Shown: piece by piece, positions 59,728-63,892 of the stretch
Layout of the letters: each line of letters opens with the position of its first letter
Numbering within the stretch: the first letter of the stretch is position 1
Assembly (NCBI GenBank): GCA_937922945.1
Contig: CAKZUP010000089.1
Location: 1-64,000, forward strand
Direction: 5' to 3'
DNA from: an uncultured Granulosicoccaceae bacterium
GTDB taxonomy: Bacteria; Pseudomonadota; Gammaproteobacteria; Granulosicoccales; Granulosicoccaceae
Length of the DNA: 64,000 bases
The notes under the pieces: model-generated
Database searches by the model: none
What the model saw: only the letters and a program-made list of their open reading frames with translations
Told to the model about the DNA's origin: nothing
Made by a program: the position numbers and the translations under genes

Positions 59728-59852
59728 GTCAATGCCCAAGGTAGAATATCAATTAGTTGAGTGTAGCCTGATCAACGGCTTCATGGCATACGGCACGTTA
59801 AAATCCACGCGTTGGGTGGACTCGGAGGGTGTAATTCCGGTAGCCTGATTGC

Positions 59853-61502
59853 GTGTTGAAAGAAAACTACTATTTAACGAATTTCCACTCGTTACTCGAA
59901 TTTGTCGGTCAGAATTATGCGGGTTTGCTCAACGATTCCGAGCAGCAATGGTTGGCCGCAATTACCAGTGCAAGTGAATCAGCGCAGCGGCTCTACGTGC
60001 GTCTGTCTAACAGGCGCGCGTCGGTATTTCGCATTGCAAAGCTTGCGTATCCAGAAATTGAATCCATTAGCGGTTCGGCATTAGAACTGAGTGAGCGTGG
60101 ATTGGCAAGCCTGGATGCCCCTGATGATTTGCTGGAGCTGGTTGCAGCTTTCACCAAACCCGAGTTAATCAAACTGCTCTTGCTGCAAGATCAGCGACAT
60201 TTAAATCGTGCCGATTTGGTGGATCACATTATAAATCGGCAACTACCCGAAGACTTAGAACGTCTGCAATTAGCTGATATGCGGCATTCTCAACAATGGA
60301 TTGCCATCAGTGGGCTGGATTCTTACACTGTATTTAAGCTCTGCTTTTTTGGCAATTGTTATCAGGACATGTCTGAATTTGTTTTACGGGATTTAGGAGT
60401 ATTCAACTACGAAGCTTACCGAATAGACAGCCAGTCCAGAGTTTTTCATTCAAGAGCGCAGCTAGATGCACACCTACAGTATTTCCATTGCGCGTCCATG
60501 TTGGAACTGGTTGATCATTCAGATGTTAATGCGCTGCTTCAAGTAGAAAAAAAATTACCTGTCATCAAAACCTACGATAACCATTTAAACCGACGGGTTG
60601 ACAGGTTACGTAATACTATTGCCAGGCAATTGGAAAGATTGAATTGTCTGGATGAAGCGCTGGCGATCTTTAGCCAATCAGATCAACCACCGTCGCGCGA
60701 AAGACAAGTTCGGTTGCTGATGAGGAAGGCTTGTTATACAGAAGCGCACGCCCAGTGCGAGAAGATGTTGGAAAACCCGGTTAATTCAGAAGAAGTGCAA
60801 TTTGTCGAAACTATTACACCGAAACTCAACAAACAACTTGGGTTAAAGCTTACTCAAAAAACGCGTTTCCGACCGCTGACCAGTAAGTTGACCTTAAGTC
60901 GCTCAGATGCACGAGTGGAGATGATCGCCAGAGATTTTTATGCGCAATTTGGAGAATGTTTTTACGTAGAAAATTCGCTAATCAACGGCGTGCTAGGTTT
61001 GTTTATCTGGGATATTATATTCTCTCCAGTTGAAGGGGTTTTTTTTAATCCCTTTCAGAGCGCGCCGGCCGATTTTTATCAACCTGAGTTTGCTTTAAAA
61101 CGATCAGCGCTGTTGGAAGCGCGTTTTCTTGAACTGGATGAACCTTTACGTTTTTCCGCGCGAGTATGGGAGAATTATGAATCCAAGCAACGGGTTATGA
61201 ATCCGCTTGTTAATTGGAATTATTTGACCGATGATTTACTGTCACTGGCGCTGATTCGTATTCCGGTTAACGATTGGCGTGTTTTGTTTAAACGAGTGAT
61301 GCAGGATTTTAAAAACCACACCAATGGATTCCCCGACCTTATATTATTTCCTGGCAAAGGTTCTTATGAAATGTTGGAGATTAAGGGGCCGGGCGATGCG
61401 CTGCAAAAAAATCAAAAACGTTGGATGTCGTATTTTTCAGAACACCGCATTCCTTATCGCGTGGTACATATTCGTTGGGCAAAACAAACATCCCCAGTTT
61501 GA
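59853..61502 (+). CDS. VRR-NUC domain nuclease, FAN1-like
   Basis: The C-terminal VRR-NUC domain (about residues 450-549) has a complete PD-(D/E)XK core: 'NGFPDLILF', 'YEMLEIKGPGDALQKNQKRWMSYF', 'YRVVHIRW'. The upstream 400 residues resemble the SAP/TPR-like helical part of FAN1-type proteins ('ELIKLLLLQDQRHLNRADLVDHI', 'RNTIARQLERL'). Bacterial FAN1 homologues cleave branched or 5'-flap DNA. Start is GTG at the track position. The adjacent helicase gene overlaps its stop, indicating joint function in DNA repair. Confidence 0.88.
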   Translation: MLKENYYLTNFHSLLEFVGQNYAGLLNDSEQQWLAAITSASESAQRLYVRLSNRRASVFRIAKLAYPEIESISGSALELSERGLASLDAPDDLLELVAAFTKPELIKLLLLQDQRHLNRADLVDHIINRQLPEDLERLQLADMRHSQQWIAISGLDSYTVFKLCFFGNCYQDMSEFVLRDLGVFNYEAYRIDSQSRVFHSRAQLDAHLQYFHCASMLELVDHSDVNALLQVEKKLPVIKTYDNHLNRRVDRLRNTIARQLERLNCLDEALAIFSQSDQPPSRERQVRLLMRKACYTEAHAQCEKMLENPVNSEEVQFVETITPKLNKQLGLKLTQKTRFRPLTSKLTLSRSDARVEMIARDFYAQFGECFYVENSLINGVLGLFIWDIIFSPVEGVFFNPFQSAPADFYQPEFALKRSALLEARFLELDEPLRFSARVWENYESKQRVMNPLVNWNYLTDDLLSLALIRIPVNDWRVLFKRVMQDFKNHTNGFPDLILFPGKGSYEMLEIKGPGDALQKNQKRWMSYFSEHRIPYRVVHIRWAKQTSPV

Positions 61503-63847
61503 GTAAGCATACCCTTAAGCTATCAGTCACAACGCTTGCTGATTTTGCGTGTCGCGTTGGCAATCTGGAATTGTCCGGCAACGTCGGACCGTCGGCAAGG
61601 GACGGGTTGCGAGCCCATCAGCGAATTCAGGCACAACGCAAAGTTGAATCTGAAATAAGACTCAAAACGCAATTAGAAATTGACGATGTGTCTGTCACCC
61701 TGACCGGCAGAGTCGATTTACTCGATAAGCAAAATCACCGGTTAAGTGAAATAAAGTCAACGCTGGTGCCAGCAGACCGTGTGAGCGAGTCTCAACAATT
61801 TCTCCAGTGGGCACAAGTAAAACTGTACGGGTTTATTTACTCAATTCAACAACGGGGCACTGGTGATTTATTACCGGATCAACGTATTGAGGTAGAACTT
61901 ATCCACGTTAATTTACGCACAAACACTGAACAATCTCAAGTGAATCGACTAAGTATTGAGGAGCTCGAGCAGTTCGGCATTGATGCCCTGCGGCGCTATG
62001 TGCATTGGAAAAAAATCATTTGGCGGGTTCAGGAACAAACAAAAAAATCTGCGATCGCAGTGCAGTTTCCGTTTCAACCGTATCGAGCGGGCCAGAGAGA
62101 CATGGCGGCAGCTATATTTCGCAGCGCCCGTGATGGCGAGAGCCTGTTGTGCGAGGCGCCAACAGGAACCGGTAAAACCTTGAGTAGTTTGTTTCCCGTT
62201 GTCAAAGCTATCGGCGAGGGGTACGTGAAACACGCGGTTTATCTCACGGCAAAAACATCGGGACGGCAAAGCGCGATGCACGCAGTCCGCGCTTTGGAGT
62301 CAGCTGGTTTAACAATAACGTCGGTGATGATTCGGTCGAAATCGCTCACGTGCTTTTGTAGTACTGGTCGCTGCGAACGAGATGAAAAAAACGTGTGTCC
62401 GATGACCTTGGGTTTCTTTGATCGTTTGCCGGCTGCGCGGGAAGAGGCTATATCCAGTGGCGTTCTTGATGGTGAAGCGCTGGATGAAATTGCATGGCAG
62501 CATCAACTTTGTCCGTTTGAGTTTGCCTTGCAGATGCTGCCATGGGTTTCGTTTGTCGTCGCCGACTACAACTATGTGTTTGATCCGTTGGTTCGAATTG
62601 CGCGCTTTAGTGAGTCTCGATCAGACACCGCGTTATTAATTGATGAAGCCCATAATCTGGTTGATCGGGCGCGTGGTATGCATTCTGGCCACCTCGACCG
62701 CACGGAACTATTGTCGGCTTATAAATTGGTTGAGTCCAGTCATCCGAAGCTAGCGAACAGCATTAAACGATTGTGCGATACGCTACTGCGTGCTGCTAAA
62801 ACCATCGATGATATAGCGGTATCAGATGCAGTCGAGAAAAAATGGGTTACTGCTGCATCGGACGTGGTTGAGGCTTATATGGATGCGGCAGATGCCGGTC
62901 CTGCTATGCCTGAAGCACTTTTCGAGGCCTTTAAAATGGCCTGTCGCTTTATCGCTATTAGCGATCTTTTTAATGATCAACATAAAGTTGTCATTACGAA
63001 GGAGACGCGGAATCGCTCAACGGGCGTGTACATCAATTTGAAATGTCTGGATGCTGCTCGATTTCTGAAGCCACAGTACAAGCTTTTCCGAAGTAGTGTG
63101 GTGTTCTCGGCCACCCTACGACCACCCCCGTTTTATCGGGATTCGCTCGGGCTTGCCGAACAGACACGTCAGCTTGTTCTTGGTTCGCCATTCTCATCAG
63201 ACCAAGTGCTGCACTGCACGGTTTCCCACATCAACACCCGGTATCAGAGCCGTACAAACTCGTTGAACGACCTGGTCGATTTGTTGTTCACAACCATTAA
63301 TAGTATGGCTGGAAGCTACATTGTATTTTTTCCATCCTACGCATACCTTGAACAAGCTTATAGCGAATTCACTCGACAACACTCGCAAATCGATACATGG
63401 ATGCAGTCTCGGGATGCAGATGCTGCAGAACGAGAACGATTAATCGACGGGCTTAGCGACAAAGAAGCAAGCCTTGGCTTCGCCATTCTAGGGGGTGTTT
63501 TTGGCGAAGGGGTGGATTATGTTGGCGATAAGCTGATTGGTGTGGTGCTCGTGGGGGTTGGTTTGCCGGGTTTAGGTACTGAGCAGGATTTAATTGCTGA
63601 GCACTATCGATCGCAAGGGCTTGATGGCTTCGACTACGCCTATCGCTATCCGGGGTTTACCAAGGTTCTGCAAACAGCGGGTAGAGTTATCCGCACTGAA
63701 ACCGACAGAGGTGTTGTATTACTGGTGGACGATCGGTTTAATCAAGGTTTTTATCAGAACCTATATCCTCCACACTGGCACAGACAAACCGCCGACTCGT
63801 TAGGCGCCGTTGAGCAGCTATTAGAGAAGTTTTGGAACACCCATTAA
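61499..63847 (+). CDS. XPD/DinG-type DNA helicase with N-terminal Cas4-like nuclease segment
   Basis: The N-terminal part has 'GRVDLLDKQNHRLSEIKSTLVPADRVSESQQFLQWAQVKLYGFIYS', a Cas4/RecB-like D...EIK...Q-x-x-Y core. The helicase follows with Walker A 'CEAPTGTGKTLSS', an Fe-S cysteine set (CFCSTGRCERDEKNVC plus C in 'QLCPFEFAL'), DEAH box 'LIDEAHNL', and motif VI 'YRYPGFTKVLQTAGRVIR'. I use TTG in the TTGA overlap as start. The track's earlier ATG (61421) would overlap the nuclease gene by 82 bp. A link to recombination or repair is well supported, but the exact substrate is not. Confidence 0.87.
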   Translation: MSKHTLKLSVTTLADFACRVGNLELSGNVGPSARDGLRAHQRIQAQRKVESEIRLKTQLEIDDVSVTLTGRVDLLDKQNHRLSEIKSTLVPADRVSESQQFLQWAQVKLYGFIYSIQQRGTGDLLPDQRIEVELIHVNLRTNTEQSQVNRLSIEELEQFGIDALRRYVHWKKIIWRVQEQTKKSAIAVQFPFQPYRAGQRDMAAAIFRSARDGESLLCEAPTGTGKTLSSLFPVVKAIGEGYVKHAVYLTAKTSGRQSAMHAVRALESAGLTITSVMIRSKSLTCFCSTGRCERDEKNVCPMTLGFFDRLPAAREEAISSGVLDGEALDEIAWQHQLCPFEFALQMLPWVSFVVADYNYVFDPLVRIARFSESRSDTALLIDEAHNLVDRARGMHSGHLDRTELLSAYKLVESSHPKLANSIKRLCDTLLRAAKTIDDIAVSDAVEKKWVTAASDVVEAYMDAADAGPAMPEALFEAFKMACRFIAISDLFNDQHKVVITKETRNRSTGVYINLKCLDAARFLKPQYKLFRSSVVFSATLRPPPFYRDSLGLAEQTRQLVLGSPFSSDQVLHCTVSHINTRYQSRTNSLNDLVDLLFTTINSMAGSYIVFFPSYAYLEQAYSEFTRQHSQIDTWMQSRDADAAERERLIDGLSDKEASLGFAILGGVFGEGVDYVGDKLIGVVLVGVGLPGLGTEQDLIAEHYRSQGLDGFDYAYRYPGFTKVLQTAGRVIRTETDRGVVLLVDDRFNQGFYQNLYPPHWHRQTADSLGAVEQLLEKFWNTH

Positions 63848-63858
63848 CCCCAGACAAG

Positions 63859-63892
63859 AAAAAGGCCCGGCTTCACAGAGGAAGCTCGGGCC
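63859..63892 (-). terminator. Intrinsic terminator on the minus strand
   Basis: Read on the minus strand, GGCCCGAGCTTC-ctctgt-GAAGCCGGGCC forms an 11-bp stem (one bulge), followed by UUUUUC. It ends the transcript of the basic protein gene at the right edge. On the plus strand there is no U-run after the stem, so it is a poor terminator for the helicase gene. Confidence 0.82.

Follow-up and report, generated by a model that had tools for sequence, protein, structure and literature searches.

A probable FAN1-EndoDinG DNA repair operon in a Granulosicoccaceae bacterium and its relatives

AddAB and RecBCD combine a helicase with a RecB-type nuclease, but these helicases belong to superfamily 1 (SF1), the enzymes resect double-strand ends and they have no FAN1. 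In humans, separate genes of the Fanconi pathway encode the crosslink repair proteins, and the helicases among them lack a nuclease domain. Human FAN1 and XPD/FANCJ-type helicases nevertheless represent the same two protein families that are treated here (PMC11981726 for FANCJ). In archaea, XPB-Bax1 likewise couples a repair helicase to a nuclease with a VRR-like nuclease fold, but XPB comes from a different helicase family and Bax1 is not a FAN1 protein (PMC7293015). PaFAN1 of Pseudomonas aeruginosa (PA1865; PDB 4R89 and 5Y7G) and other FAN1 orthologs cut 5' flaps and act on or unhook crosslinks, and are monomeric (PMC4103454, PMC9635880). EndoDinG is the name already given, in a 2025 review, to a nuclease-helicase fusion, and the endonuclease activity of the Bdellovibrio protein is cited there as unpublished data (PMC11981726). 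Here we describe a gene pair encoding FAN1 and EndoDinG in a 64,000 nucleotide stretch of DNA, hereafter the window, from an uncultured Granulosicoccaceae bacterium. We suggest that the pair is probably a two-gene DNA repair operon. The operon consists of two plus strand genes that fill positions 59853-63847 of the window:

59853-61502, plus strand: open reading frame of the FAN1 homolog, GTG start, 549 amino acids.
61499-63847, plus strand: open reading frame of EndoDinG, TTG start at 61499, 782 amino acids.
61499-61502, plus strand: TTGA, a 4-nt overlap in which EndoDinG starts (TTG) and FAN1 stops (TGA).

Both proteins belong to known families. In brief, the first open reading frame matches the Pfam models FAN1_HTH (E 1e-20, residues 6-84) and VRR_NUC (E 1e-23, C-terminal residues 434-542), and it matches the PaFAN1 crystal structures end to end (E 5e-82). 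The catalytic set E373, D495, E509 and K511 is complete in the window protein; E373, D495 and K511 are invariant across 26 FAN1 sequences, E373 being a further invariant acidic residue. D495, E509 and K511 correspond to D507, E522 and K524 of PaFAN1 (PMC9635880). Judged by its domains and catalytic residues, the predicted protein is a full-length FAN1 homolog. The initial annotation, made from the sequence, had called it a VRR-NUC nuclease; this is correct, but FAN1 is the more exact name, as opposed to a stand-alone VRR-NUC resolvase. It shares with PaFAN1 the HTH and VRR-NUC domains and the catalytic D/E/K over full-length homology, but the two sequences have clearly diverged, and an operon partner is not discussed in the PaFAN1 sources searched. 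A different FAN1 architecture is found at L083, L084 and L085, where FAN1 is fused to a C-terminal DEDD exonuclease; no EndoDinG was found in the genomes of these loci.

The second open reading frame is an EndoDinG, that is, a RecB-type PD-(D/E)XK nuclease fused to an XPD/DinG iron-sulfur (Fe-S) helicase. It matches the Pfam models DEAD_2, Helicase_C_2 and, just above the cut-off, PDDEXK_1 (E 1e-4), and aligns with the Finegoldia magna DinG structure 9KQH (E 3e-112). An AlphaFold2 model (mean pLDDT 91, pTM 0.90) gave 9KQH, annotated as DinG, as the best structural match (TM 0.82/0.87, 30% identity). Archaeal XPD structures followed, and the fifth match was 8REV, XPD stalled on a crosslinked Y-fork. 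The motifs are located as follows:

61616-61828, plus strand: PD-(D/E)XK active-site residues H40, E52, D73, E84, K86, Q106 and Y110, identical in 35 of 35 aligned sequences.
62156-62179, plus strand: helicase motif I (Walker A, APTGTGKT), residues 220-227, with K226 (62174-62176) invariant.
62351-62512, plus strand: predicted Fe-S cysteines C285, C292, C300 and C338, each kept in 31-34 of 35 sequences.
62642-62653, plus strand: DEAH box, D382-E-A-H385.

The four cysteines are consistent with an XPD-type Fe-S cluster. Among the named loci checked, only L129 deviates in the active site: it has a gap at H40, and its N-terminus is cut by the contig end. The residue set matches that of the EndoDinG subgroup of the review (PMC11981726). 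The Bdellovibrio DinG of that subgroup and 9KQH share with the window protein the N-terminal PD-(D/E)XK domain with H, E, D, E and K, the XPD-type core and the four-cysteine Fe-S region. The review gives no account of FAN1, VRR or EndoDinG neighborhoods, whereas the window EndoDinG is coupled to FAN1. Of the earlier claims, both the XPD-type Fe-S helicase and a second nuclease domain are borne out. The D...EIK...QxxY core proposed for the latter is right in its residues (D73, E84-I-K86, Q106 and Y110) but not in its spacing, which is Q-x3-Y (QVKLY) and not QxxY.

Two departures from this EndoDinG architecture were seen elsewhere. In every one of the six Lactobacillaceae proteins (L108, L112, L113, L134, L147 and L152) all four Fe-S cysteines are lost together and every nuclease residue is kept, a state that we liken to the vestigial Fe-S domain of CasDinG. 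In a single-contig genome (L078:6856-9152), EndoDinG is divided into overlapping frames encoding a nuclease of 121 and a helicase of 654 amino acids.

The two genes are found together far beyond the window. FAN1 is present in 31 and EndoDinG in 30 of 57 relatives, and none of these genomes has EndoDinG without FAN1. FAN1 always comes first in the 30 pairs taken from whole genomes, and the genes overlap by 1-17 nt in 25 of them (exactly 4 nt in 16). Both genes are present, and adjacent, in 12 of 352 genomes of the class. Across 349 Pseudomonadota genomes, FAN1 was found in 55, EndoDinG in 43 and both in 36, a co-occurrence with a Fisher p of 4e-28, uncorrected for phylogeny. In 35 of these 36, EndoDinG immediately follows FAN1 on the same strand. 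In 80 named EndoDinG loci FAN1 is by far the most widely shared neighbor, and it adjoins EndoDinG in Pseudomonadota and one myxococcal genome. Pairs reach very divergent lineages, down to approximately 30% identity, and usually still overlap. Because full-length homologs occur in the same order, usually overlapping, in dozens of genomes, the pairing is far beyond chance. The FAN1 and EndoDinG gene trees share 29 of 47 splits (cophenetic r 0.83), as expected of co-inheritance. Mapping the pairing on the tree required nine label changes, which would fit a single old association with losses in Burkholderiales and with L115 and L136 as outliers. The initial annotation had named a lack of conserved neighborhood and missing catalytic residues as points that would count against it; the pair is conserved, and the residues are intact in both proteins.

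Two loci show other arrangements. In the myxococcal genome (L115:3142-7304), FAN1 and EndoDinG are adjacent, head to head and divergently transcribed. At L075:6585-7850 FAN1 is separated from EndoDinG by two genes, one for a HigB-type toxin and one for an HTH protein, which are probably a HigBA pair; on either side of them the gene junction is directly duplicated (89 bp, exact).

Many relatives in Pseudomonas, Paraburkholderia and Microbulbifer have LexA-type boxes ahead of the operon. In 12 of 48 loci a perfect CTGT-N8-ACAG box is present within the 200 nt before FAN1, compared with 12 of 788 other genes; several of these other genes adjoin FAN1 in the same loci, where the box is probably in the same intergenic region. 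When matches at seven or more of the eight positions are counted, 20 of 50 FAN1 genes have a box (3.6 expected from shuffles), compared with 6 of 58 lone EndoDinG genes (3.2 expected). A further 18 genomes gave six perfect boxes and eight at 7/8, mostly 33-95 nt upstream; one of these (L208) is doubtful. In the bacterium's own genome, a scan for CTGT-N8-ACAG found 56 sites, compared with 36 for the reversed control, and one site, on C12, has the full consensus CTGTATATTTATACAG. In P. aeruginosa, PA1865 and its neighbor PA1866 are reported to respond to UV-C, and PA1865 also to ciprofloxacin, and both genes are counted outside three known damage regulons (PMC12796719).

Several observations weigh against a two-gene repair operon. 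The LexA box was not found upstream of the operon in the window, where the best match is 5/8, or in close relatives and the bacterium's own family. PA1866 is presumed to be the P. aeruginosa EndoDinG from conserved gene order only. The agreement of the gene trees is also expected from shared vertical descent alone. EndoDinG without FAN1 occurs in Firmicutes, Verrucomicrobiota, Chloroflexota and some Burkholderiales, and outside Pseudomonadota it is mostly alone. FAN1 without EndoDinG occurs in Vibrio plasmids and in one family of six genomes (f170). Neither gene strictly needs the other. The whole genomes behind the named EndoDinG loci had no FAN1 at all in 18 of 20 cases, the exceptions being Pseudomonas cichorii, with FAN1 elsewhere, and the myxococcal genome. 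Nineteen Pseudomonadota genomes have FAN1 but no EndoDinG. Six of these are the f170 family, and ten others fall in groups with long open frames, of which the sequenced examples are FAN1-DEDD exonuclease fusions.

The occurrence of each gene alone in some lineages fits a view of the two as independent repair genes, placed on one transcript only by common regulation or chance linkage and lacking a joint substrate. So do cases where both genes are kept on different contigs or stretches (Pseudomonas cichorii, G592). We nevertheless consider such independence unlikely. It does not account well for adjacency, usually with overlap, across such divergent lineages, for the head to head myxococcal genes or for another coupled nuclease in Legionella. 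These cases suggest selection for a nuclease partner.

In the Legionella plasmids (L173:5998-9976, L175 and L176), EndoDinG overlaps an exonuclease/GIY-YIG nuclease gene by 8 nt and sits near Ku, LigD, UmuDC or DinB. EndoDinG thus has a different nuclease partner there, in a repair setting. In 16 of 20 loci of the window's own family, the pair lies close to selU/selD, a dehydrogenase gene or DUF3429. FAN1 is single copy and near-core in the genus (24 of 27 genomes).

Helicase-nuclease pairs are common in defense systems, and the PADLOC model typeIV_DinG matches the helicase with an E of 9e-102. FAN1-EndoDinG might therefore be an anti-phage or anti-plasmid module that degrades invading DNA, but we regard this as improbable. 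FAN1 has no PADLOC match, and a single-copy, near-core gene preceded by LexA-type boxes in relatives is not what such a module would lead one to expect. The fixed housekeeping neighborhood in the family is unlike a mobile defense module, and neither a patchy or mobile distribution nor a defense-island context was seen. The viral contigs searched contained no confirmed FAN1 and one full-length EndoDinG. A phage collection gave 16 EndoDinG matches; among the ten listed none is annotated and several are Listeria records, and these matches may be host DNA. The initial annotation had left the role unsettled between repair, recombination and defense. This can be narrowed, with repair favored over defense because of the LexA-type boxes in relatives, the fixed chromosomal position, the single copy, the lack of confirmed viral FAN1 and the repair genes around the Legionella EndoDinG.

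The same PADLOC match (PDLC01439), together with the earlier label Cas4-like, could be taken to mean that EndoDinG is the CasDinG of a type IV CRISPR system or an adaptation protein related to Cas4. This is highly improbable. EndoDinG scores 19.2 bits with the NCBIfam model for Csf4 (TIGR03117), for which the cut-off is 400. Since this is far under the cut-off, the PADLOC match looks like a naming trap. EndoDinG retains four Fe-S cysteines and an N-terminal nuclease, whereas the Fe-S domain of CasDinG is vestigial (PMC10450177). The top structural match is annotated DinG, as noted above. The pair's neighbors are housekeeping genes and not a CRISPR adaptation context, although CRISPR arrays were not searched for. 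The Pfam Cas4 model matched none of 35 EndoDinG sequences. A conserved Cas4-type Fe-S cysteine was not found in the nuclease domain, which has only Cys18, a cysteine in 7 of the 35. Cas4-like was therefore too strong a label; the domain is of the RecB/AddB/RecE/EXO5 class, and RecB-type describes it better. Automatic tools may miscall EndoDinG proteins that are apparently not CRISPR proteins as CRISPR-associated. Based on PADLOC, NCBIfam, the neighborhoods and the plasmid, phage and viral collections, we rejected an anti-phage or CRISPR function as the main role.

DinG/XPD helicases travel 5'-3' on single strands. By analogy with characterized relatives, the window EndoDinG would have endonuclease and 5'-3' helicase activity, and FAN1 would be one of the structure-specific nucleases that cut 5' flaps and unhook interstrand crosslinks. 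In a repair operon, single-stranded 5' ends or forks would be the loading sites of EndoDinG, which would unwind the duplex as far as the lesion and use its own PD-(D/E)XK nuclease to trim the strand that it displaces. FAN1 would make the structure-specific cuts at the fork or flap. Produced together, the two proteins would make blocked or crosslinked DNA at stalled forks accessible and cut it. We infer both the joint action on one substrate and the use in crosslink repair. More tentatively, and with real doubt, we speculate that FAN1 and EndoDinG bind each other in a helicase-nuclease complex, which is induced by damage in many proteobacteria and unhooks interstrand crosslinks on its own. If true, it would be a minimal bacterial counterpart of the eukaryotic crosslink arm of FAN1 plus an XPD/FANCJ-type helicase.

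The TTGA proposed earlier as a sign of co-translation is present at the gene junction, and the overlap suggests translational coupling. A further putative expression signal lies upstream of the operon:

59837-59848, plus strand: CCGGTAGCCTGA, which contains a -10-like TAGCCT at 59841-59846, 6 nt ahead of the GTG.

In the window and the four relatives closest to it, TAGCCT precedes the start codon by a few nucleotides; the more distant relatives listed do not have it there. It may serve as a -10 element for a leaderless transcript of the operon. A sigma-70 and terminator scan gave no signal clearly above shuffles. At 63864-63892, 3' of EndoDinG, there is a GC-rich hairpin with a T run on the minus strand. 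It adjoins a convergent gene for a lysine/alanine repeat protein resembling histone H1, which continues beyond the end of the window.

The literature searched did not yield a description of this operon; the PaFAN1 structure papers (Gwon 2014, Jin 2018), which may mention it, were outside that literature. In structural and biochemical work, bacterial FAN1 has served as a model for the human enzyme, and the descriptions of EndoDinG are separate from that work. The conservation of the two genes as an overlapping operon and the LexA-type boxes in many relatives point to a likely partner and pathway for each protein. The operon may explain the damage response of PA1865 and PA1866 outside the listed regulons in P. 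aeruginosa (PMC12796719), and it opens a two-gene test of crosslink repair in ordinary laboratory bacteria.

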